This document shows positions 11,304 through 33,376 of a DNA stretch of 34,526 bases, one piece after another (the stretch's first letter is position 1; the number at the start of each line of letters is the position of its first letter). The position numbers and the translations under genes are program-made. This DNA is from Candidatus Delongbacteria bacterium (GTDB lineage: Bacteria > UBA4055): contig QKDR01000103.1 in assembly GCA_003252515.1 (NCBI GenBank), positions 1 to 34,526 on the forward strand. Reading direction: 5' to 3'. Under the pieces are notes generated by a model, which was given only the letters and a program-made list of their open reading frames with translations, was not told where the DNA came from and searched no databases.

Positions 11304-14300
11304 TTATTTCCTCTTGAAAGCTTCATATATTACCGGAAGAATCACCAGCGTAAGAAGGGTTGCGAATGACAGACCGAAAATAACTGTCACAGCCAGTGGT
11401 TTTCTAAGTTCAGACGATCCTCCGTATGAAATTGCCATAGGTATCATTCCGAATACGGTTGTTATTGTTGTCATCAGTATCGGTCTTAATCTCTTTCTGC
11501 TTGCATCGTATATAGCTTCCCTTATACTCATTCCTGCCCTTACGGTATTCTCTATAAAGTCTATTTTAACTATAGCGTCGTTAACAACAATCCCTATCAG
11601 CATTATCATACCTATACCCGACAGAATATTTATTGTCTGTCCGGTAATAAAAAGCCCGAGTGCCACTCCGATAAAAGCGAAAGGAACGCTCAAAACTATA
11701 ATGAACGGACTCAATAATGATTCGAACTGGGAAGCGAGTACCATATAGACCAGCACAAAAGAAAGCAGAAACATGAAAATTATCTGTACCATAGATTTCT
11801 GCATTTCCTCGTTTTGACCGCCCACCTCTATTCTCATACCTCTGTACAGATCGATTTTATCTATTTCTTCCTTAACTTTCTTAACCGCCTGATCAAGTCT
11901 GCCCGTAGTAAGATTGGCGGTCACGGTTATTACTCTGCCCTGACTCTGATGTCTGACCGATTCGGGTCCGCTGTAGTAATTAACATTGATCAGCGAACTC
12001 ACCGGATAGGATTTCCCCGATTTTTTATAGACAGTACTTACAATATTTTTAATATCTTCGTTAAAACTCTCGCTTGTTCCCACAATTATATCGACCGTTT
12101 TATTATTTTCAGTAATCTGGGTTGCGGTTTCACCTTTTACTGACGCCGTTATGAACGATGATATCTCAGATTCGGTCAGATTGTTTTCTTCAAGAAAAGT
12201 ATCGTTGAAATCTATTATGATCTGCGGTTTGCTGCCGCTGAAATCTGACTTGATCTCCGAAAGCAATCCTGTGCTTTTCATTGCAGAAGAAACCTTATCC
12301 GATATTTCTTTAAGATCGGAAAGTTCATTCCCGAATATTTTAACACTCAGATCGCCTTCCTCGCTCTGGAGCATATCACCCAACACCGACACATCTGTGT
12401 TGAAGTTTATTTTAAGGTTTATATCCTTTTTAAGATTATACTCCGCTATGTCTTTTCTTAACGCATTGATAAACTCATCGGTAGTAACTTTATCTTCCAG
12501 CTTAACCTGAAGATCGCCCTTGTATACAGTTGCGCCGGTCAGCAGCGATTTTTCATCCGAGATCCCGCCGGTCGCGAAAACTGATACTGCACCTTCTTTC
12601 GACAGTATCATCTGCTCAAAATCCCTGATCACACTCTCGGTAGTCCAGATGCTCGTTCCGGGATTAAGCTCAACAGAAAGGATGAATTCCTTCCCGTCAA
12701 CTTCAGGCATCACTCTTTTTTCTGTCTCAACCAGTATCAGTCCCGAGAGCAAGAATGCCAGTATCGAAAATGTGAATGTTTTCGTTTTATGATCAAGCGC
12801 GTAAGTCAGTACCGAATGGTATTTATTTTCAAAATATGAATAGGACGAATCAAAAGCTTTAAGAAGCGGTCTGGATACAAATTTAATAAACGAAACGAAT
12901 AATTTGAAATAGAACACAAACAGACCGGCAAAGAAACTGAAAATAATCCTGAAGAACGCCCTGATGTTTCTTCTGATACCCTCAATCTGGAAAATTTCCG
13001 AAGCCATTTCTTTTGTAAATCCGTAAAATTTTCTGTTGTTAAGCAGGCCGAACAGATTGATGAAAAATGTTATTCCGCCCAGAATATAAGCGTAAAGCAT
13101 AAAGGTTTTCGTGCTCAACTCTTCTTCGTAAGGCTGAAACATTTCATTGATAAAAGATGATATATCATAGAGCAAACTTTCAAATCCGTTAAGGAAATCC
13201 AGGCCGGTAGCGGCAATAAGCGCATGAACCGGTTCAAAATAATCGATCTTAGCTATGTATGCCGACGGAATAGTCAGAAGCAGAAGGACAGTGAACCAGA
13301 CAATATTTACAATAACTGTCCTGACAACGGCTTTCTTAGGAAGATCCGTGTTCTTTCTGTTGAAGATCAGAAATTCGAAAGTTTTAACGAACGGATCCGT
13401 CAGTACCGCAAGAAAAAGAATGTAAACGAATGCGGACTCGTCAATCGGGATCTTGCTGAGCATTATGATACCGAAGTACGCGAGTGTCAGAACGGTCCAG
13501 TAGATGCCGGTCTTAAATATCGGACCGTTATCTTCCTTTATACTATCGTCAGAAGTTTCAGCCTTTTTATTCTCGATACTGAACTTTTTGTACAGTACGG
13601 GAACCAAAGTGACGGAAACGAAAAGAGAACTTACGAGGGCAAAAGCGACCGATACAGACTGATCTTTGAAAAGTTCACCCGCTACACCGGATACGAACAC
13701 GACCGGCATAAATACAATAATGGTTGTGAAAGTCGATGCGGAAACCGGCAGAATAACTTCTTTTACCCCCATCCAGCATGCCGTAAATATATCGGCTGTC
13801 TCCCTTTTCTTCCTGTCGATATTCTCCAGCACGACGATTGAATTGTCCACAAGCATTCCTATACCCAGAGCGAACCCCGACAGTGACATCAGGTTAAGTG
13901 ATATCCCTGAAAAATAAAGCAAGGTGAAAGTAGAGAATATACTTATCGGCATTGCAAGAGCTATATTGAACGGCGACCTGAATTCGCGGAGGAAAAGAAA
14001 AAGCGTTAAAAACGACAGTATTCCGCCCAAAAGGATCGCCTGTACGACATTGTTGATGGAGTCGGTTATAAATTCCGACTGGTCGTAAACTGTGTTTATA
14101 TTGACGTCAAGAGTAGTGTTAAGTTCGTCAGTGATCTCTTTTACTAGCTTGACGACCGTTACAGCGTTAGCGTCTCCGTCCTTTCTGATGAGAATGGCGG
14201 TCGATGCGGCGGCGTTGAATCTGGTGAACGATCTCTTTTCCTTTGTCCGGTAGCTGACTTCGGCCACATCTTTAAGATAGATATTTCTCTTGTTATCGAG

Positions 14301-15032
14301 TTGTTTTACGAGCGTATTCTCAATATCCGCAAGGTTCTCGAACTCTGAAGAGATGACGAGATCGTAGATGTAGACGTCGTCCTTGACCGTGCCGCCGGGA
14401 GAATTTGTACTGGCTGATCTGACGGCGCTGATAACTGTATTGAATGATATCCCGTAAGTATTGAGCTTGTCGATGTCGGCCTCGATCCTGATCTCGTTCT
14501 CCTCACCGCCGATAACGTCCGCCATCGCGACGCCCTCAATCTGTTCGATCCTCTTTTTTATTATATGTTCGGAGATGTCGCGTACGGTCTTCTGGTCGTT
14601 TCCCGATATTGAAAGTATCATTATCGGCTTTGCGGCGGGGTCGACCCTTAAAATGTTGGGGCGTCCGGCCGTATCGGGCAGTGTGGCGGCATCTAGCTTT
14701 TCTCTCAGATAGAGTACCGCGAAATCCATGTCGGTTCCCCATGTGAAATCAATTGTGATCAGTGAGATAGATTCCTTAGATTCGGACTTAATGCTGATTA
14801 TATCCTTAAGACCGGCGATCGAATTTTCCAGAGGCTCCGTAACCAGTCTTTCGACCTGTTCCGGAGAACTGCCTTCAAGCTCCGTCCAAACCGTAAGTGA
14901 AGGATATTTTATGTCTGGAAGAAGATTGACCGGAAGTTTCTTGTATGAAATTATGCCGAACAGAGTTACGGCTGTAAATACCATAATAACTGTTATCGGT
15001 CTTGAAAGGATCGTTTTAAGCATATTATTCAT
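11304..15032 (-). CDS. RND efflux transporter permease subunit with extra membrane insertion
   Basis: This 1242-residue AcrB/HAE-1 type permease is about 200 residues longer than usual. TM1 follows ILSRPITVIMVF (8-19); TM4 holds GMLVDNSIVVLENI with Asp396 and Asn397; the TM10 segment is GIVVNDAIVKIDFI, with Asn1151 at the AcrB Lys940 position and a Lys at 1156. The extra length lies between TM6 (ends near 483) and TM7 (starts near 751). It includes about five hydrophobic stretches near 510-527, 533-549, 568-588, 642-664 and 692-715. The chosen ATG overlaps the adaptor gene by 8 bases. An ATG three codons later (15021-15023) would start just past the adaptor stop and is equally plausible. No strong Shine-Dalgarno is visible, so coupling to the adaptor is likely. 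Confidence 0.9.
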   Translation of the reverse strand: MNNMLKTILSRPITVIMVFTAVTLFGIISYKKLPVNLLPDIKYPSLTVWTELEGSSPEQVERLVTEPLENSIAGLKDIISIKSESKESISLITIDFTWGTDMDFAVLYLREKLDAATLPDTAGRPNILRVDPAAKPIMILSISGNDQKTVRDISEHIIKKRIEQIEGVAMADVIGGEENEIRIEADIDKLNTYGISFNTVISAVRSASTNSPGGTVKDDVYIYDLVISSEFENLADIENTLVKQLDNKRNIYLKDVAEVSYRTKEKRSFTRFNAAASTAILIRKDGDANAVTVVKLVKEITDELNTTLDVNINTVYDQSEFITDSINNVVQAILLGGILSFLTLFLFLREFRSPFNIALAMPISIFSTFTLLYFSGISLNLMSLSGFALGIGMLVDNSIVVLENIDRKKRETADIFTACWMGVKEVILPVSASTFTTIIVFMPVVFVSGVAGELFKDQSVSVAFALVSSLFVSVTLVPVLYKKFSIENKKAETSDDSIKEDNGPIFKTGIYWTVLTLAYFGIIMLSKIPIDESAFVYILFLAVLTDPFVKTFEFLIFNRKNTDLPKKAVVRTVIVNIVWFTVLLLLTIPSAYIAKIDYFEPVHALIAATGLDFLNGFESLLYDISSFINEMFQPYEEELSTKTFMLYAYILGGITFFINLFGLLNNRKFYGFTKEMASEIFQIEGIRRNIRAFFRIIFSFFAGLFVFYFKLFVSFIKFVSRPLLKAFDSSYSYFENKYHSVLTYALDHKTKTFTFSILAFLLSGLILVETEKRVMPEVDGKEFILSVELNPGTSIWTTESVIRDFEQMILSKEGAVSVFATGGISDEKSLLTGATVYKGDLQVKLEDKVTTDEFINALRKDIAEYNLKKDINLKINFNTDVSVLGDMLQSEEGDLSVKIFGNELSDLKEISDKVSSAMKSTGLLSEIKSDFSGSKPQIIIDFNDTFLEENNLTESEISSFITASVKGETATQITENNKTVDIIVGTSESFNEDIKNIVSTVYKKSGKSYPVSSLINVNYYSGPESVRHQSQGRVITVTANLTTGRLDQAVKKVKEEIDKIDLYRGMRIEVGGQNEEMQKSMVQIIFMFLLSFVLVYMVLASQFESLLSPFIIVLSVPFAFIGVALGLFITGQTINILSGIGMIMLIGIVVNDAIVKIDFIENTVRAGMSIREAIYDASRKRLRPILMTTITTVFGMIPMAISYGGSSELRKPLAVTVIFGLSFATLLTLVILPVIYEAFKRK

Positions 15033-17539: not shown

Positions 17540-18673
17540 CTAATACTCATAAACATCTATTGAAAGATCTTGAATACTCATAACATAGAGCCTGTCGCCA
17601 ACATAGAACTCCTGGCCTGAAAGCATCTTCAAAAGACCTACATCTTCCTTGTCCTGTATTTTGCTGTAATCCGCCCTGTTAAGAAATTTACCGTCTTTAA
17701 AAATGTCAACATATACGCCTGTACTGTCAAGATTCCTGTCAACATTGGGTATCACAAGCAGTCTTCCGTATTTATCGGTGTGTATTGATGAGATCGCTTT
17801 CTTAAAATTCCCGATCTTAATATCCTGTGTCCCGCGGGAGTTTTTCTTCATCTCATCCAGATATTTTTGTTTCTCCTCAGGTGTGTAACGGATCATATTG
17901 TAATCTTTTCTGATCTCGAATTTCTTATTTCCTTCATAATCATAGGCCAGTATTCTATACTGATTGTCCGAATTCTCTGAAACGTAAATGAACTCGTCCC
18001 CGGGTACGAAAGGGATAATAAGATCGTTGATATCTATCTTACCCTGCATTATATCGTTAACTGAAAAAATTCTGCTTCTCAGAACAGATTTCGCCTTAAG
18101 ACTGTCGGTGCCGATAACAGCAAGAGAAAAATCAATATCCGGCATGTCTCCTTCCTTCATCATGACTTTCTGTACATATGAAGCCATGTGTTCACCGTTT
18201 CTGGACATTCTTAGACTCTGAAGCTGCGCCTGCTCTATGTTCTTTTCATAATACAGATTGCCGTCAAGATCGAATTTCACAAGTTTCGGAGGCTGCATAC
18301 TTGTTACATTCAAAGTATCATTCTCAATAAACATGACGATCGGGTTTATAAATTCTCCCGGCCCCTGTCCCGATCTTCCGATATTCATTAAATAATTACC
18401 TGAACTGTCGAATTTTTTAATATTCATATCTCTCATATCAAGAACATAAATATTATTACTTTTATCTGCCGTCAGAGATATCGGCATTTTCAAGTATGCT
18501 GCGGTATCGGTCTGATTCTCTGAAGATATACTGAACAGTTTCTTCAGGTCTAAAGCAGCTGTCGGATCTCCCGGTTTATCAGTATTTGAGAATACGGAAG
18601 AGTCCGTGTTCTTTTTCCCGCAGGAAATTATAACCAGTGCGGTTATTATTATGGTGTAAATGATCTTTTTCAT
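17540..18673 (-). CDS. 6-bladed beta-propeller lipoprotein
   Basis: This 377-residue exported lipoprotein has a signal peptide that ends in the lipobox IISC with Cys18. The body shows NHL-like blades such as NIYVLDMRDMNIKKFDSSGN, followed by GRSGQGPGEF and KLVKFDLDGNLY. This pattern is typical of the 6-bladed beta-propeller proteins abundant in Bacteroidetes-like bacteria. No enzyme motif was seen and the function of the family is poorly known. It is the first gene of the efflux operon, only 53 bases before the chosen TolC start, with an AAGGGG Shine-Dalgarno and a TATAAT upstream. A paralogue lies at 24897-26000. Its place suggests a periplasmic or outer membrane accessory of the pump, but this is inference. 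Confidence 0.8.
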   Translation of the reverse strand: MKKIIYTIIITALVIISCGKKNTDSSVFSNTDKPGDPTAALDLKKLFSISSENQTDTAAYLKMPISLTADKSNNIYVLDMRDMNIKKFDSSGNYLMNIGRSGQGPGEFINPIVMFIENDTLNVTSMQPPKLVKFDLDGNLYYEKNIEQAQLQSLRMSRNGEHMASYVQKVMMKEGDMPDIDFSLAVIGTDSLKAKSVLRSRIFSVNDIMQGKIDINDLIIPFVPGDEFIYVSENSDNQYRILAYDYEGNKKFEIRKDYNMIRYTPEEKQKYLDEMKKNSRGTQDIKIGNFKKAISSIHTDKYGRLLVIPNVDRNLDSTGVYVDIFKDGKFLNRADYSKIQDKEDVGLLKMLSGQEFYVGDRLYVMSIQDLSIDVYEY

Positions 18674-24896: not shown

Positions 24897-26000
24897 TTAA
24901 TAGTTATAATACTTCATCTTGTTATTGAACGCGTCGAAAACAACGAGTTTATCCTCCACAAAGTCGACGATGTCCGTGCTGTCTGCCTGAACTTCAACGG
25001 TGTTCTGATAGATACCGTCCTTGAAGATATCGTAAAGTCTTCTTGTCTCAGCATCCGGAAGAGCCGCCTGAACCCACAGCCTGTCGTACTTGTCCATAGT
25101 GATCAGCACTATCGAGTTCTTGAACCTCCCTTTTGCCGTCAGGTTGTTCCTGTCCAGCTGCCTCTGGATCCGGGTAAGTTCATTTTCTGTATACGGAATC
25201 CTCTGATACCTTTTCTTTATTATCATCTTTTTATTGCCTTCGAAATCAAAAACGTCAAGTGTGTACTCGTTCTCATTATATCTGGGCAGATATACCATGC
25301 TGTCTGAAGTCACCGACACACAGGGGTTACGCACGAAGTTCAGATCGAAGACTGGATTCTGGAAATCGAATTTGTCCTCCCTGAATGTTCTCAGGCAGTT
25401 GAATCGGTCATCGAAGAGATTTAAATTCCTGATGACCATTCCGGGACCTTCCTCGGGCACAGGAGTAAAACTCATCCCCGTAACGAAGTTCCTCGTCTTC
25501 CAGAAAGTGCCCGGATATTCGGACGACTTGCTGTACCGTTTGTCAGTTATAAAGTTGCCGTCCGTGTCGAATTTGATGATCTTGAGCTGCTGGGGAGACG
25601 GAACATACACCGTGTCGTGCCATACCACGAAAAACCCGACGTTTAAAAACTCCCCCGGTCCGGTCCCTCTTCCGCCGAATATTTTGACCCTCTTCCCCGT
25701 CGGATCGAACTTATGGATCTCGGATCTCCTGCTGTCCAGAACATAGACGTTCCCCCGTCCGTCCAGCTCAACGTTATTCAGCTGTACCGCATGAGCAGTA
25801 TCAGCCTCGCTTATCGCGTTCAGGTCCAGCGCCAGCGCAGGTTTTTCCATGTCGATCTTCAGATCCGGATCAGCCGGCCCGTTATGATTTATTATCACCC
25901 TCACTCCGTCCACATCCTCAACTTTGTAGCTAAGATTCTTATCTGCGCATGAAACAAGCAGCATGACAGCCGCCGCACATACTATTATCAGCTTTTTCAT
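24897..26000 (-). CDS. 6-bladed beta-propeller lipoprotein (paralogue)
   Basis: This 367-residue exported lipoprotein has a signal peptide ending in lipobox LVSC with Cys18. It is clearly related to the protein at 17540-18673: both have a GN(V/I)YVLD blade, a short HKFD or KKFD strand, a GPGEF motif, and a KFDTDGN or KFDLDGN turn in the same order and spacing. The shared order shows that they are paralogues. No catalytic motif was found. A very good GGAGG Shine-Dalgarno lies five bases before the ATG. A TATAAA at 26068-26073 on the minus strand may be its -10. It ends at the terminator shared with hcp. No role can be assigned beyond a cell-envelope lipoprotein. Confidence 0.8.
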   Translation of the reverse strand: MKKLIIVCAAAVMLLVSCADKNLSYKVEDVDGVRVIINHNGPADPDLKIDMEKPALALDLNAISEADTAHAVQLNNVELDGRGNVYVLDSRRSEIHKFDPTGKRVKIFGGRGTGPGEFLNVGFFVVWHDTVYVPSPQQLKIIKFDTDGNFITDKRYSKSSEYPGTFWKTRNFVTGMSFTPVPEEGPGMVIRNLNLFDDRFNCLRTFREDKFDFQNPVFDLNFVRNPCVSVTSDSMVYLPRYNENEYTLDVFDFEGNKKMIIKKRYQRIPYTENELTRIQRQLDRNNLTAKGRFKNSIVLITMDKYDRLWVQAALPDAETRRLYDIFKDGIYQNTVEVQADSTDIVDFVEDKLVVFDAFNNKMKYYNY

Positions 26001-27269: not shown

Positions 27270-27276
27270 CCTCCTT
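27270..27276 (-). promoter_or_regulatory. Strong Shine-Dalgarno overlapping the addBA stop codon
   Basis: AAGGAGG on the minus strand ends four bases before the ATG of the Fe-S membrane protein and shares two bases with the TAA (27275-27277) of the fusion gene. This fixes the start and suggests translational coupling. Confidence 0.8.
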
Positions 27277-30200
27277 ATTCGATCTCTTTTAATTCGGATT
27301 TGTCCTTGCCTATGAAGAATAGATATTTTTTAATATTTTTATCCTGATATATTTTTCCCAGCGCTTCGGCATATATACCGACCTGCGTTTTATACTTATT
27401 TATAAGTTCTTCGTCAGGCGACTTGTACAGATAAGTTTTATAATCAAGCACAACAACTTCATTCCCGCACAGCAGAACAAGGTCTATATATCCCTGAACA
27501 TTCCTGTCAGCCATAACGATGTTCTTTTCGCAGAGGACGCGTCCGCACTCAGCGTAACTTCTGAACAGCCTGTCAGACATTATATTCGAGATCATTTTTT
27601 TGACTGTCACAAGGCTGACAGATGAAGGCTCGCTCTCTTTCTTTTTAAATTCCTTAAGCTCTTGATCAAGATCGAACCCCGGCTTGAACAATTCAGTTAT
27701 CTTTTTACTCATAAACAGGTGGACGAAATTACCTGTGTCTATTGCAGTCGTACTGCCTTTTTCGTTCGTTACTTCATTATCATCGTGCACTATACCCGTA
27801 ACTGAATAAAGGCCTTCCTGTCTTATATGTCCGCTCAGGTCGTATTCCTTTTCCGCCTGATACGTACCTTCACTGAGGCCATCTTTTTCATAATATCCGC
27901 CCAGGTCGAATTCGCTTATGTCTTTCTGAATGAATCTGAAGCCGCCAATACTTCCTTCGTTCTCACTCCCGAATTTTCTGAGATACTTTGCCCAGCTCTC
28001 CCTCTTTCCTTCGTCATTGTTCCCGCTTTCGTCTTTTGTCTGTATCACAACCGTCAGAGAGCTCTTCGCCCTCGTCAGCGCAACGTAAAGCAGATTGGCT
28101 CTTTCCTGTTCACTGAAAAATTTATTCTTATGTTTTATATATTCGTTAAGGAAAAAATTCCTTTTATCACCGCCGCCTGGGGTCGAATATCCCGACATGG
28201 AAAAGTCCCTGTAACAGCCGTCCTCTCCGCACAAGTTCAGATAATTGAAAAGAGTCGAAAAATTTCCGCCGTTTTCATCAACGTTGGCCACGATCAGATC
28301 GTCGAACTCCAGTCCTTTCGCACTGTGGACGGTCATTATCGTCACCGATCCCGGATCTTTCACTTCCACACCAGCAGAATTGGCTTTAATGTTCTTTTCG
28401 AGCACTGTCAGGAACCTTTCCCTGTCGTTATCGGACTTATTCAGAAGTGAGATCAAGGTCTTTTTCAGTATCCCGATATTGGCAGATCTGGTTTCACAGT
28501 CGTCAAATGTAGAAATGTATTTTCTGTATATTTTATTGTCCGACAAGCTGAATATAAGCGAAAGCAGAGGGACGTCTTTGTCCATTGATAAAAGCAGATC
28601 CATGTATTGCGGAATGAACTCGATCTCCTCAGGCGCGGCCGCTCCCAGAACAGCCTTCAGTATCAGAACGAACTCCTTTACCTCGTCAAGTTTGAAAAGA
28701 TCTTTTTTTAGTATAAGAGTATAAGGTATGCTCTTTTTCCTGAACGCTTCAGTGATATAACCGATATGCGTGTACTTCCTGATCAGCACAGCCCATGAAC
28801 CGTATTTCTTTCCCCTCTTTGCGTTCTCATCTATCGTATCCGCAACAAAAGCCGCCTCGCACATTTTGCTGATCCTTCCAAGTTCGTTCCTGCTCAGATC
28901 AACGTTGTCCTTTTTCGCCTTTTCCGTACAGATATTGATAAAATTAACTGACCATGGGTATATGTTGTCTTTTTTTACGGGTATCAGAAGTTCATCTTTA
29001 TTTTTAATTATATCGTAACCGTTAGACACGCCGGGCTCGAAGACCATATTGTTGAAATTAACGATTTGCGGCACTGACCTGTAATTCTCGGAGAAATACA
29101 GCGTGAGAAACTTATCCGACAGCCCGTATTTTTCGAATATCTGGACGTCGCACTGCTGAAACCGGTAGATCGACTGTTTTTTATCACCCACGAAGAAAAA
29201 ACGGTTGTTTCCGCCGGCCAGAGCTTCTAATATCCTGTCCTGAAGCCAGTTCGTGTCCTGGAACTCGTCTACCAGAACATGTCTGAACTGATCCTGTAAT
29301 TTATTCCTGAGTTCCTGATCGTTTAGCATTTTCAGGAAGTGCAGGTGCAGATCGCTCTGCTCGAGAAGTCCCTTTTCCAGCTTGAATTCTTTAATATGGT
29401 TGTCGAGCGCTTTAATTATGCCGAAAACCGCTTTTTTAATGATCCATTCCTTTCCGTTCAGGCTAAGATCCACGTTCTTCTTATTGAATATCCTGTATCC
29501 TTCCGTCTCTGACAGAGCTTCAGCCGAGTCATATATCTCAGGATATTTCTTTGTATCCCGTTTGTAGCTGAATTCCTGATGATTTTTCACTTTTACACCG
29601 AGCGCCGTAAGTTTTTCATCCGTTTCATTTCCTATGAGGTCCAGCAATTCATCTTTCAGCCTGAAGTAATCACCGAACTCAGTTCGCAGCCTGTTCTCAA
29701 CTGAGCTGAGATAATCATCGAGAGACTTTATCCAGTCTGCAGAATCGAATCCTCTACCGCTAAGCTTAATTTCATCGTATATCCTTAATATGTCGGGAAT
29801 AAAACCGCCCTCATTGTCGCCGGAATAGATAAGATGCCTTGACTCAAACCAGTCCGCGAATTCAGCGTATTCCCCGTCAGTAATATCAGGGCATATAACG
29901 TTCTTGAATTTTGTATTGAATTTGCTTTTCAGAAATTTTACCGCTTCCTCTCCGGCAGTGAAATCTTCAGATAGTTCCATGGCTATGTCGTAGCCCTTCA
30001 GTTGATCTGAAGAATAGCCGAATTCAGTTATGAATTTATTGCAGAACGAATGGAATGTGGAGATCAGATTCTTATCGTAAAAATCGTCTTTTATTTTTAA
30101 GAGTTTTTCCTTCTGTCTTTCAGTTATCCTGTATGAAGCAGATTCACTGTCTTTGAATACCGCGAAAAAATACCCGCTGTCAAGGATGTCATTCAGTTTC

Positions 30201-33200
30201 GAATATATCCTTTTCTGCATCTCACCCGCAGCTTTTTTCGTAAAAGTTATGCAGACTATGTTCTCAAGACCGACATCGGTATTAATGAGAAGACTGATGT
30301 ACTTTGAGGACAGCACCTCGGTCTTTCCCGCTCCGGCTCCTGCCGAAATAATTATATTACCGGAAGAGATCAGTGCTTTTTCTTTCTGATCTTCGAAAAT
30401 TATGAATTTCTTCGTTCTTTCTTTATCTCTTTCATCATTTCTATCAGCTTCGAAGATCAGGTTTTGACGTCCGGCTTCAGGCTTTACTTCGAAGCTTTCA
30501 ATCAGTTCGAATTTCCTGTTCTCAAACTCAGGACACGATTGAGATAACGGGCAGTATTCACACTTGGAACACGCTTCCGGTTTATATTTCATCCCGTCTC
30601 CTAGTCTTGCTTTGAGTTTATCGAGAAATCCTTCAAAAGTCTGACCGCTGACGGACAGTTTATAAGGGCTGTTCGGCGAATAGTAAACAGCCTCCATTTT
30701 CGCTCCGGCGCTGATCTTCCCGAAATACTCATCACCCAGTATCGTGCAGTCCTTATACTGAAGTTTATCATCTTGTCTTTCCGGTGAGAAATTCACGCCC
30801 GGCAAGCCTCCCGCACGCCTTAACACAGCCTCGCGGTACAGAAGTATTTGCACTTTTTGGTAATTTTCGATCTCCTCTTCGAATTTGTCGAATTTCCTGT
30901 TAGATTTGATATCGATTATTCTGATAGTTCCCGAATAGTCTATGTAGAGAAAATCAATATAGCCTATTTTTATGCTTATTTTCGGATCGCTGAGAACATT
31001 CAGATCAGCGAATTTGACCTCATTCTCGAAAGTTGATGTGACTGAAGCCGGAGTAGGGCCGAGCTCTAACATAAGCCATGCGAGAAATCCGATGATCTCC
31101 GACTTCTGCTTCCGACGGGCGTAATACGAATATGGATCATTATCTTCCTGCTTGGTCAACTCTTCATCGATGATCGTCAGTATCCCCGAGCGGGTGATCC
31201 TTTCGGCAAGGATATCGAACGGTTCACTATATTTTTCACTCGGTACATTGTATAAATAATATTCCGGGAACTCGTTGAACCTTGATCTTGCGATATCGTC
31301 TTTCGTCTTACCGCTGCTCAGAAGAGAAACTGCCGTACTGTACACGGTTTCGTCCAGAAGACCGCCGTCTTTAAAATATTTAAGGAACCTTTCAGTCACA
31401 TGATGATAGAAAATCCCTCTCACGAACGGGAACTGGGGCTCTATCATATCGTAATTCATGTTCAGATCATGTACGTGGGCTGCCGGGCATGCCATGAAGC
31501 TCTCTATCTTCGATGCAGAGACAAGAAATTCTTCGATATGTCCTTCTTTAAGGCTTATGCCGAATTCCTCTTTTAACGGCCTCGGTACAGCTTGAGTTAC
31601 TGTCAGACCCCCGAAATTCTTTTCTTTGAGTTTATCGCTCAGAGCTACGCTGAAGTCCGCACTAAGGTCTTCCGATACTTTTCCCTTCGGTACTACTTCC
31701 AGCTTCATATTTCTCTTCGGGTACAGTCCGAATATCCTGTCCAGCTTCGTTGACGGTATGAACTCCTCTCCCCACTGCGGAACGAGAAATGCTACTTGCT
31801 CTGTATCGCCCGAGGTTATTACGCCCAGATCCTCAAATAGTGATTTTTCCGGGTCTATGCCGTAAACGCTTTCGTACAGGCTGAAATAATTATCTTTGCT
31901 GAGGATCTTTATTGGATTTGAAGCTTTAAGGAACACATCTTCGGTCATACCTGCGAAGATCAGGCATTTCCCTGCCGGAGCAGGTTCATTAAGCATCGTT
32001 ATACGCACACCGTTATAGTCTTTATTAAGCTTTCCAGTGTTCGTCTTGGTAGCGATCAGATATAAATAATCAATGTAATCTGTAAATTTCCTTTCCGTAT
32101 CGCCGAATATTCTCTTTACTGTGTCCTCGTATGTATAAATATCTGTTTCCAGCTTTTTGCCAAGCATTCCGAACACATCTTTTAGAGCATTCAGCTTATC
32201 CTTGATCTGTTTCAGAGCCCTTTGAGCACTCATATGTTCGTCACGCAGTAGAACAGCCTTCAAGAACGCTTTTATAAAATTCTTCTGACCGCTCTTGATT
32301 TTCAGCTTCAGATCGCTTCCTTGGATTTCGAACAACTTCGCGATAAATGTCTTTAAGTCCAGATCTGTCAGATCGTTGAACAGCAGCGGTTTATGAGCGA
32401 TATAGAGATTTAAGAAGTTAAGAATGCTTTGGACGTCTCCATCAGCGCCTGCCTTGAAAAGCCTCAGAATATCCGTATTGATATCATTACCTGCGAACTT
32501 GTATGACGAGTAGGCCGATATGCCTTCAGCGAAGAAGTAATTATTCAGTATTCTGTAATATTCTTCATCCGGGCAGACGACAGTAAAATCATTCAGGATG
32601 TACCCTGACTGTTCAGTTAGAGTATGCAGAATAATATGTTTTATTCTTTTAGCTTCGTCGAGCTTTGAAGCCGATATAAAAAAACCGACACTGTCAGGAT
32701 CGAATTTCACGCCAGGTTTGCCTTCGAACACATCCGGAAGTTCCGAATATTTTCCCTCTGATCTGAACAAGATATCCTGTGCTCCGAGAGCTTTTAAAAA
32801 TTCTTTTTCCTTATATGAATACTCTCCGGCGCTGAAATTCACATAATATAAGTTTTCTTTACGATCAACTGATTTTATCGCCTTATCGAATATCTGGCCT
32901 TTGAAATAATAACCCTGCTCACTGACGAACTTCTTTATTTTTTCAAGAACTTCAGGCACGAGATTATTCTTTTCAAGATCGTTCAGGATAGCCTTGTCTT
33001 TAAACTCACCAGGTCCGAGATCGGTAAGGTTTAAAAGCTTTAGCAGGCTTTTCTTATAATTCCTGAAATGCGGTTTTTTGAACTTGTCTGGCAGGCCTTC
33101 CGTATCGCATCTTTCCATGAGCACCAGAAAGTCCTCTTCTCTGATCTCTCCGCCTGTCCCGATCCCCGAAAGTTCCCTCGCATGGTCATGTACAGCCTTT

Positions 33201-33376
33201 ATTTCAGGTAAGAACGAGACCTGTATTCTCTGTTCTTTCAGCCATTCCGTCATCGCCAGCTTGATCCTATGGCTCTGGGAAACGTCCTTTACCAGCAGAA
33301 GCGATTCGGCTATATCTTCAGGCTGTCTGAAGCTTCCATCTTCATTTAGAAATATAGGAGTAAAATTTATAAACAT
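27275..33376 (-). CDS. AddB-AddA fusion: dual-nuclease UvrD-family helicase for double-strand-break processing
   Basis: This 2033-residue chain holds both subunits of an AddAB-type helicase-nuclease. Residues 1-600 resemble the inactive helicase part of AddB, with GMTEDVF at 476-482. Residues 615-960 are an AddB-type PD-(D/E)XK nuclease (Asp808, Asp822, Lys824, then QILLY) with an iron-sulfur staple: Cys630 and CSKCEYC...C at 936, 939, 942, 948. From about 990 comes AddA: Q-motif Gln997, Walker A GAGAGKT at 1013-1019, Walker B DEFQDT at 1370-1375, TVHSAKG at 1682-1688, and YVALTRAK. The end is a second nuclease (GYID with Asp1965; DYK with Asp1978 and Lys1980). No methionine lies in the joint region, so this is a true fusion in the addB-addA order. 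The N-terminus lacks the P-loop seen in Bacillus AddB. The protein would resect DNA ends for RecA. Confidence 0.92.
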   Translation of the reverse strand: MFINFTPIFLNEDGSFRQPEDIAESLLLVKDVSQSHRIKLAMTEWLKEQRIQVSFLPEIKAVHDHARELSGIGTGGEIREEDFLVLMERCDTEGLPDKFKKPHFRNYKKSLLKLLNLTDLGPGEFKDKAILNDLEKNNLVPEVLEKIKKFVSEQGYYFKGQIFDKAIKSVDRKENLYYVNFSAGEYSYKEKEFLKALGAQDILFRSEGKYSELPDVFEGKPGVKFDPDSVGFFISASKLDEAKRIKHIILHTLTEQSGYILNDFTVVCPDEEYYRILNNYFFAEGISAYSSYKFAGNDINTDILRLFKAGADGDVQSILNFLNLYIAHKPLLFNDLTDLDLKTFIAKLFEIQGSDLKLKIKSGQKNFIKAFLKAVLLRDEHMSAQRALKQIKDKLNALKDVFGMLGKKLETDIYTYEDTVKRIFGDTERKFTDYIDYLYLIATKTNTGKLNKDYNGVRITMLNEPAPAGKCLIFAGMTEDVFLKASNPIKILSKDNYFSLYESVYGIDPEKSLFEDLGVITSGDTEQVAFLVPQWGEEFIPSTKLDRIFGLYPKRNMKLEVVPKGKVSEDLSADFSVALSDKLKEKNFGGLTVTQAVPRPLKEEFGISLKEGHIEEFLVSASKIESFMACPAAHVHDLNMNYDMIEPQFPFVRGIFYHHVTERFLKYFKDGGLLDETVYSTAVSLLSSGKTKDDIARSRFNEFPEYYLYNVPSEKYSEPFDILAERITRSGILTIIDEELTKQEDNDPYSYYARRKQKSEIIGFLAWLMLELGPTPASVTSTFENEVKFADLNVLSDPKISIKIGYIDFLYIDYSGTIRIIDIKSNRKFDKFEEEIENYQKVQILLYREAVLRRAGGLPGVNFSPERQDDKLQYKDCTILGDEYFGKISAGAKMEAVYYSPNSPYKLSVSGQTFEGFLDKLKARLGDGMKYKPEACSKCEYCPLSQSCPEFENRKFELIESFEVKPEAGRQNLIFEADRNDERDKERTKKFIIFEDQKEKALISSGNIIISAGAGAGKTEVLSSKYISLLINTDVGLENIVCITFTKKAAGEMQKRIYSKLNDILDSGYFFAVFKDSESASYRITERQKEKLLKIKDDFYDKNLISTFHSFCNKFITEFGYSSDQLKGYDIAMELSEDFTAGEEAVKFLKSKFNTKFKNVICPDITDGEYAEFADWFESRHLIYSGDNEGGFIPDILRIYDEIKLSGRGFDSADWIKSLDDYLSSVENRLRTEFGDYFRLKDELLDLIGNETDEKLTALGVKVKNHQEFSYKRDTKKYPEIYDSAEALSETEGYRIFNKKNVDLSLNGKEWIIKKAVFGIIKALDNHIKEFKLEKGLLEQSDLHLHFLKMLNDQELRNKLQDQFRHVLVDEFQDTNWLQDRILEALAGGNNRFFFVGDKKQSIYRFQQCDVQIFEKYGLSDKFLTLYFSENYRSVPQIVNFNNMVFEPGVSNGYDIIKNKDELLIPVKKDNIYPWSVNFINICTEKAKKDNVDLSRNELGRISKMCEAAFVADTIDENAKRGKKYGSWAVLIRKYTHIGYITEAFRKKSIPYTLILKKDLFKLDEVKEFVLILKAVLGAAAPEEIEFIPQYMDLLLSMDKDVPLLSLIFSLSDNKIYRKYISTFDDCETRSANIGILKKTLISLLNKSDNDRERFLTVLEKNIKANSAGVEVKDPGSVTIMTVHSAKGLEFDDLIVANVDENGGNFSTLFNYLNLCGEDGCYRDFSMSGYSTPGGGDKRNFFLNEYIKHKNKFFSEQERANLLYVALTRAKSSLTVVIQTKDESGNNDEGKRESWAKYLRKFGSENEGSIGGFRFIQKDISEFDLGGYYEKDGLSEGTYQAEKEYDLSGHIRQEGLYSVTGIVHDDNEVTNEKGSTTAIDTGNFVHLFMSKKITELFKPGFDLDQELKEFKKKESEPSSVSLVTVKKMISNIMSDRLFRSYAECGRVLCEKNIVMADRNVQGYIDLVLLCGNEVVVLDYKTYLYKSPDEELINKYKTQVGIYAEALGKIYQDKNIKKYLFFIGKDKSELKEIE

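Follow-up and report, generated by a model that had tools for sequence, protein, structure and literature searches.

The window analyzed here, the whole 34,526-nucleotide stretch of contig QKDR01000103.1 from a Candidatus Delongbacteria bacterium, contains a gene that is a real single-chain fusion of AddB and AddA, whose function we infer. The earlier note on this DNA had described an uninterrupted AddB-AddA frame, and this was borne out: a single open frame runs on the minus strand from an ATG at position 33376 to a stop codon at position 27275, comprises 2033 codons (2033 amino acids) and has no internal stops. The sequence elements that the note had read by eye (GMTEDVF, the Walker A and DEFQD motifs and the catalytic residues of two nucleases) were all found at the residues it gave for them. 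The layout of the gene is as follows.

27275..33376, minus strand: AddB-AddA fusion gene, 2033 aa, one open frame; full-length homologues in G001, G005, G006, G007 and G008
31532..33376, minus strand: AddB helicase-like region, residues 1-615, without Walker A, GMTEDVF at 476-482; profile-profile match to split AddB across the whole half, best fold match 4ceh_B (AddB)
30530..31522, minus strand: AddB PD-(D/E)XK nuclease, residues 619-949, with D808, D822 and K824 and Fe-S cysteines C630, C939, C942 and C948; PF12705 match at 619-949, invariant columns
30404..30529, minus strand: AddB-to-AddA linker, residues 950-991, variable in sequence, similar in length, predicted to be disordered, without a conserved internal start (alignment, start scan, models)
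28040..30403, minus strand: AddA SF1A motor, residues 992-1779; PF00580, PF13361 and AddA model TIGR02785 (E = 7.7e-62), motifs invariant
30320-30343, minus strand: Walker A of the AddA motor, residues 1012-1019
29255-29269, minus strand: DEFQD motif of the AddA motor, residues 1370-1374
28064-28087, minus strand: motif VI (YVALTRAK) of the AddA motor, residues 1764-1771
27347..27751, minus strand: AddA C-terminal PD-(D/E)XK nuclease, residues about 1876-2010, with invariant D1965, D1978 and K1980; second PF12705 match at 27299-27748, invariant columns

Identity of the two halves

Pfam placed PDDEXK_1 at residues 619-949, the UvrD N-terminal domain at 996-1416 and UvrD_C at 1629-1778 of the 2033-residue protein, and the only Walker A of the chain lies in the C-terminal half. 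The earlier note had proposed that each half be checked with family profiles, and the outcome differed between them. The AddA half matched the AddA model, which was the best of all NCBIfam models for the fusion protein, at a score well under the curated cut-off. The AddB half had no curated AddB match: neither Pfam ADDB_N nor NCBIfam AddB gave a hit at E <= 1 in any of the ten fusion members, and no DNA-repair family was matched by residues 1-600 in any of them, while the nuclease domain PF12705 was matched in nine of the ten. Since a PDB sequence search with the AddB half also came back empty, this half was identified by profile-profile and fold comparison. Aligned by hhalign with four AddB sets, split as well as fused, it reached probabilities of 95-99%, against 14% for an AddA control, and in global mode the alignment spanned the whole half with the Fe-S cysteines superposed. 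The region that follows GMTEDVF aligns to AddB; the latch arginine of the Bacillus protein is not mappable in that alignment.

Structure modelling, likewise suggested in the earlier note, led to the same assignment. AlphaFold2 models were built on lineage alignments (mean pLDDT 69.6 for the N-terminal half and 71.4 for residues 850-2033) and compared with the PDB by Foldseek. AddB chains took ranks 1-5 for the N-terminal half (E about 1e-11), with AdnA also among the matches, and AddA chains took ranks 1-4 for the C-terminal half (E from 1e-38 to 1e-43). TM-scores were low (0.36 to AddB, 0.48 to AddA), and the models therefore support the identity of the domains and not the mutual arrangement of the halves. 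Thus, the C-terminal half is supported as AddA by its sequence and the N-terminal half as AddB by profile-profile comparison and fold search.

Conservation of the fusion and its joint within the phylum

The gene was found in 12 of 13 sampled genomes of the phylum, all from one family. Six of the 13, representing five genera (G000, G001, G005, G006, G007 and G008), carry the whole fusion in a single frame, about 2000-2060 codons long; contig-edge fragments in G002, G009, G010 and G012 cross the joint in a single frame, and in G003 and G011 both halves are present on separate contig pieces with the joint outside them. Identity among the full-length homologues falls to 28%, and since frame, order and catalytic residues are conserved over this distance, the arrangement is more than chance. 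The active-site residues of both nucleases, Walker A, DEFQD, motif VI and cysteines 630, 939, 942 and 948 are invariant in the six full-length proteins. The earlier note had assigned five cysteines to an Fe-S staple; all five are present in the window's protein, but Cys936 is shared only by G000, G001 and G008 and is replaced by Asn in the other homologues that cover the position, so the conserved set is reduced to four. These four make up a signature C ... C-x2-C-x5-C around the AddB nuclease, from which an Fe-S cluster is predicted. Separate addA or addB genes were not found in the genomes of the phylum, where PDDEXK_1 is essentially confined to the fusion gene. The genes that flank the fusion in the window are not common to other fusion loci.

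The linker is the most variable part of the protein, with 23-40% identity in the three closest homologues, compared to 49-73% elsewhere. Despite this, Walker A follows the last Fe-S cysteine at a distance of 62-68 residues in every one of the six full fusions. The pLDDT of the linker was below 50 in the AlphaFold2 models, which suggests that a segment of about 40 residues is probably disordered. Residues 949-995 contain no methionine, as had been claimed. Comparison of homologues revealed no conserved internal start at the joint and no conserved Shine-Dalgarno sequence near it; a near-joint ATG or GTG is present in two homologues. No conserved motif was found in the linker.

Recurrence in other phyla and possible origin

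A search of related genomes had been proposed in the earlier note, and it showed that the fusion is not unique to the source genome, being kept across the lineage and recurring in other phyla. In a survey of 386 genomes sampled across bacteria, 111 gave an AddA/RecB-type match at E <= 1e-32, and 108 of these belong to phyla other than the window's. In three of the 108 positives (G168, G208 and G409) the match lies in a genuine AddB-AddA frame of at least about 2000 codons; the survey undercounts fusions, since several of those in the window's own phylum missed the threshold. Altogether, at least three other phyla have fusions of the same order, and some of these fusions are without the second nuclease; the architecture is thus recurrent and uncommon. 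The proteins are 1995 (G208), 2123 (G168), about 2040 (G222), about 1940 (G224) and 2460 (G409) residues long. In the phylum of G168, fusions were found in further families too (G221, G222 and G224); the frame of G226 comprises just the AddB nuclease and AddA. The fusions of this phylum stop after the motor and have no second nuclease (loci L137, L142, L151 and L152), and those of G221, G222 and G224 are devoid of the C-x2-C-x5-C motif as well. G208 and G409 were each the only genome of their phylum observed to have a fusion, and in three relatives of G409 the AddA frame is of normal length. A profile of the AddB half of the window's lineage did not find the AddB halves of the other phyla at E <= 1e-5.

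The 2460-residue fusion (L147:4159-11541) has a second C-x2-C-x5-C motif at its C-terminal nuclease, a sequence feature that suggests two Fe-S clamps in one chain. High-GC long frames in G187, a case among the survey positives that is an artefact of its GC content, and in G129 were rejected as fusions, for AddB and AddA lie there in different, overlapping frames; overlapping long frames on both strands in G149 were set aside in the same way, with their domains unread. A scan of contigs with a profile of six fusions relied on patterns that were generic helicase motifs, and it therefore retrieved 80 loci of AddA/UvrD type without any additional fusion. A 2036-codon frame on a Calditrichota contig (L047:12015-18122) lies on the strand opposite to the AddA match. 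A plasmid search returned helicase-domain matches only, none of which covered 80% of the query.

The order addB-addA, to which the earlier note had drawn attention, is also the usual one in split operons, and most of the split loci examined have addB immediately before addA. In a Chloroflexota locus (L056; ADDB_N and PDDEXK_1 confirmed) the two genes are in the same frame and one stop codon apart, and L156 looks the same. Loss of a stop would thus be a short step, and stop loss, as had been suggested, or a small indel is a plausible route to the fusion. In trees of the motor, the window's fusions form one clade (support 100) apart from the other fusions; three state changes are needed in a 78-row tree but two in a smaller one, and the AU test did not reject the grouping of all fusions in a single clade (p = 0.35). 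It is, in our estimate, an even call that single-chain AddBA is an architecture that has been overlooked and has evolved repeatedly from addB-addA operons, and that one branch later lost the AddA nuclease together with some of the Fe-S clamp to give a one-chain, one-nuclease resection machine.

Proposed role and relation to known enzymes

We consider it very likely that the product of the gene is a single-chain helicase-nuclease of AddAB type and acts as the lineage's enzyme for double-strand-break resection. In AddAB, the motor is AddA, the nuclease of each subunit cuts one strand, and AddB is the site of Chi scanning in Bacillus. Correspondingly, the C-terminal half would be an ATP-driven 3'-5' motor with one nuclease and the N-terminal half a motor-dead AddB scaffold that carries another nuclease, pinned by Fe-S. 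The AddB Fe-S clamp would be followed by a flexible linker, about 40 residues long, that ends where the AddA motor begins; since it joins AddB to AddA, the halves would be made at a presumably fixed 1:1 stoichiometry and could dock in cis. By analogy with AddAB, we infer the activity itself, the assignment of the nucleases to strands, RecA loading, control by Chi and the persistence of an uncut chain.

The enzyme shares with AddAB (AddA and AddB in Bacillus subtilis, RexAB in some Gram-positives) the SF1A motor with a C-terminal nuclease, the helicase-like half with an Fe-S nuclease, the order addB then addA and the presence of two nucleases. It differs in that both halves are parts of one polypeptide connected by a flexible linker rather than separate subunits, and in an AddB half too divergent for the Pfam and NCBIfam AddB models. 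The fusions of other phyla have the same order and the same position of the joint, between the AddB nuclease and the AddA Walker A, but those of G168's phylum lack the C-terminal nuclease and in part the Fe-S cysteines, and that of G409 has a second Fe-S-type motif at the C-terminus. RecBCD has a shared task and an AddA homologue in RecB; however, it consists of three subunits with one nuclease and two motors, and RecC and RecD are absent here. AdnAB of mycobacteria also pairs UvrD-like halves and has two nucleases, but both of its subunits have a UvrD-like motor, whereas the N-terminal half here is without Walker A.

The distribution of AddAB and RecBCD was reportedly surveyed by Cromie in 2009. 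G004, alone in the family in lacking the fusion, encodes a RecB (L040:6944-10279, 1111 aa) whose score of 602 bits falls a little short of the curated cut-off (696), and a RecD (G004:C67:58850-60544) that scores 463 bits, over its cut-off. Neither RecB nor a RecD over the cut-off was found in the 12 other genomes of the phylum, and none of the 13 had a match to RecC (PF04257). RecBCD of G004 is therefore incomplete as seen; its RecC may be divergent or absent from the draft. RecBCD, AddAB or AdnAB was reported in 88% of genomes, with RecBCD and AddAB together in only 16 genomes, and the latter two are known as mutually exclusive alternatives (PMC6452273). Because the fusion alternates with RecB/RecD as AddAB does with RecBCD, it is most likely the break-resection enzyme of the lineage.

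These data also bear on other explanations. The source is a draft genome of 183 contigs, and one could suspect an assembly artefact or a recent, pseudogene-like stop loss in a single genome; since ten genomes have the same joint, at identities as low as 28% and without loss of any catalytic residue, this view is refuted by the conservation of the fusion and has next to no probability. It is very improbable that the protein is a RecBCD-type, AdnAB-type or Gabija-like defence helicase instead of AddAB. Such a reading could draw on the UvrD-domain matches to RecB, PcrA and GajB profiles and on AdnA among the fold matches of the N-terminal half. However, AddA was the best NCBIfam model, AddB chains stood above AdnA and RecC in the fold search, and the chain has a single Walker A, unlike AdnAB; RecC is absent, RecD occurs only in the relative without the fusion, and the GajB matches are limited to the shared UvrD motor of a protein that has two nucleases of its own.

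An ordinary AddA-AddB heterodimer would result if the chain were cut at the linker or if translation also began at an internal start. A linker that is variable, predicted to be disordered and hence protease-accessible, as well as the near-joint ATG or GTG in two homologues, would permit this, but we regard it as unlikely, since joint starts are not conserved, none nearby has a conserved Shine-Dalgarno sequence and the linker carries no conserved motif.

In many bacteria, recombinational repair begins with AddAB-type enzymes, which have been studied in heterodimeric form. A naturally occurring single chain of fixed stoichiometry would be handy to express for single-molecule work and would offer a natural test of how closely its halves need to be held in position. 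A literature search, with most subscription journals outside its reach and prior notice thus possible, did not reveal any account of natural AddB-AddA fusions. The fusion would be missed or mislabelled by annotation pipelines in which addA and addB are counted apart, because its AddB half is recognized by neither ADDB_N nor NCBIfam AddB and its AddA half scores far under the cut-offs.

Two further observations concern the surroundings of these genes. Lipoprotein-like proteins that carry a GPGEF motif and, by eye, resemble beta-propellers are encoded at positions 17540-18673 and 24897-26000 of the window and at L040:5443-6582 beside recB in G004; they apparently form a paralogous family. At positions 11304-15032, the window encodes what by eye is an RND-type efflux protein of 1242 residues, compared to 1023 in its neighbour, with an apparent extra hydrophobic insertion in mid-protein; it adjoins likely membrane-fusion and outer-membrane partners.
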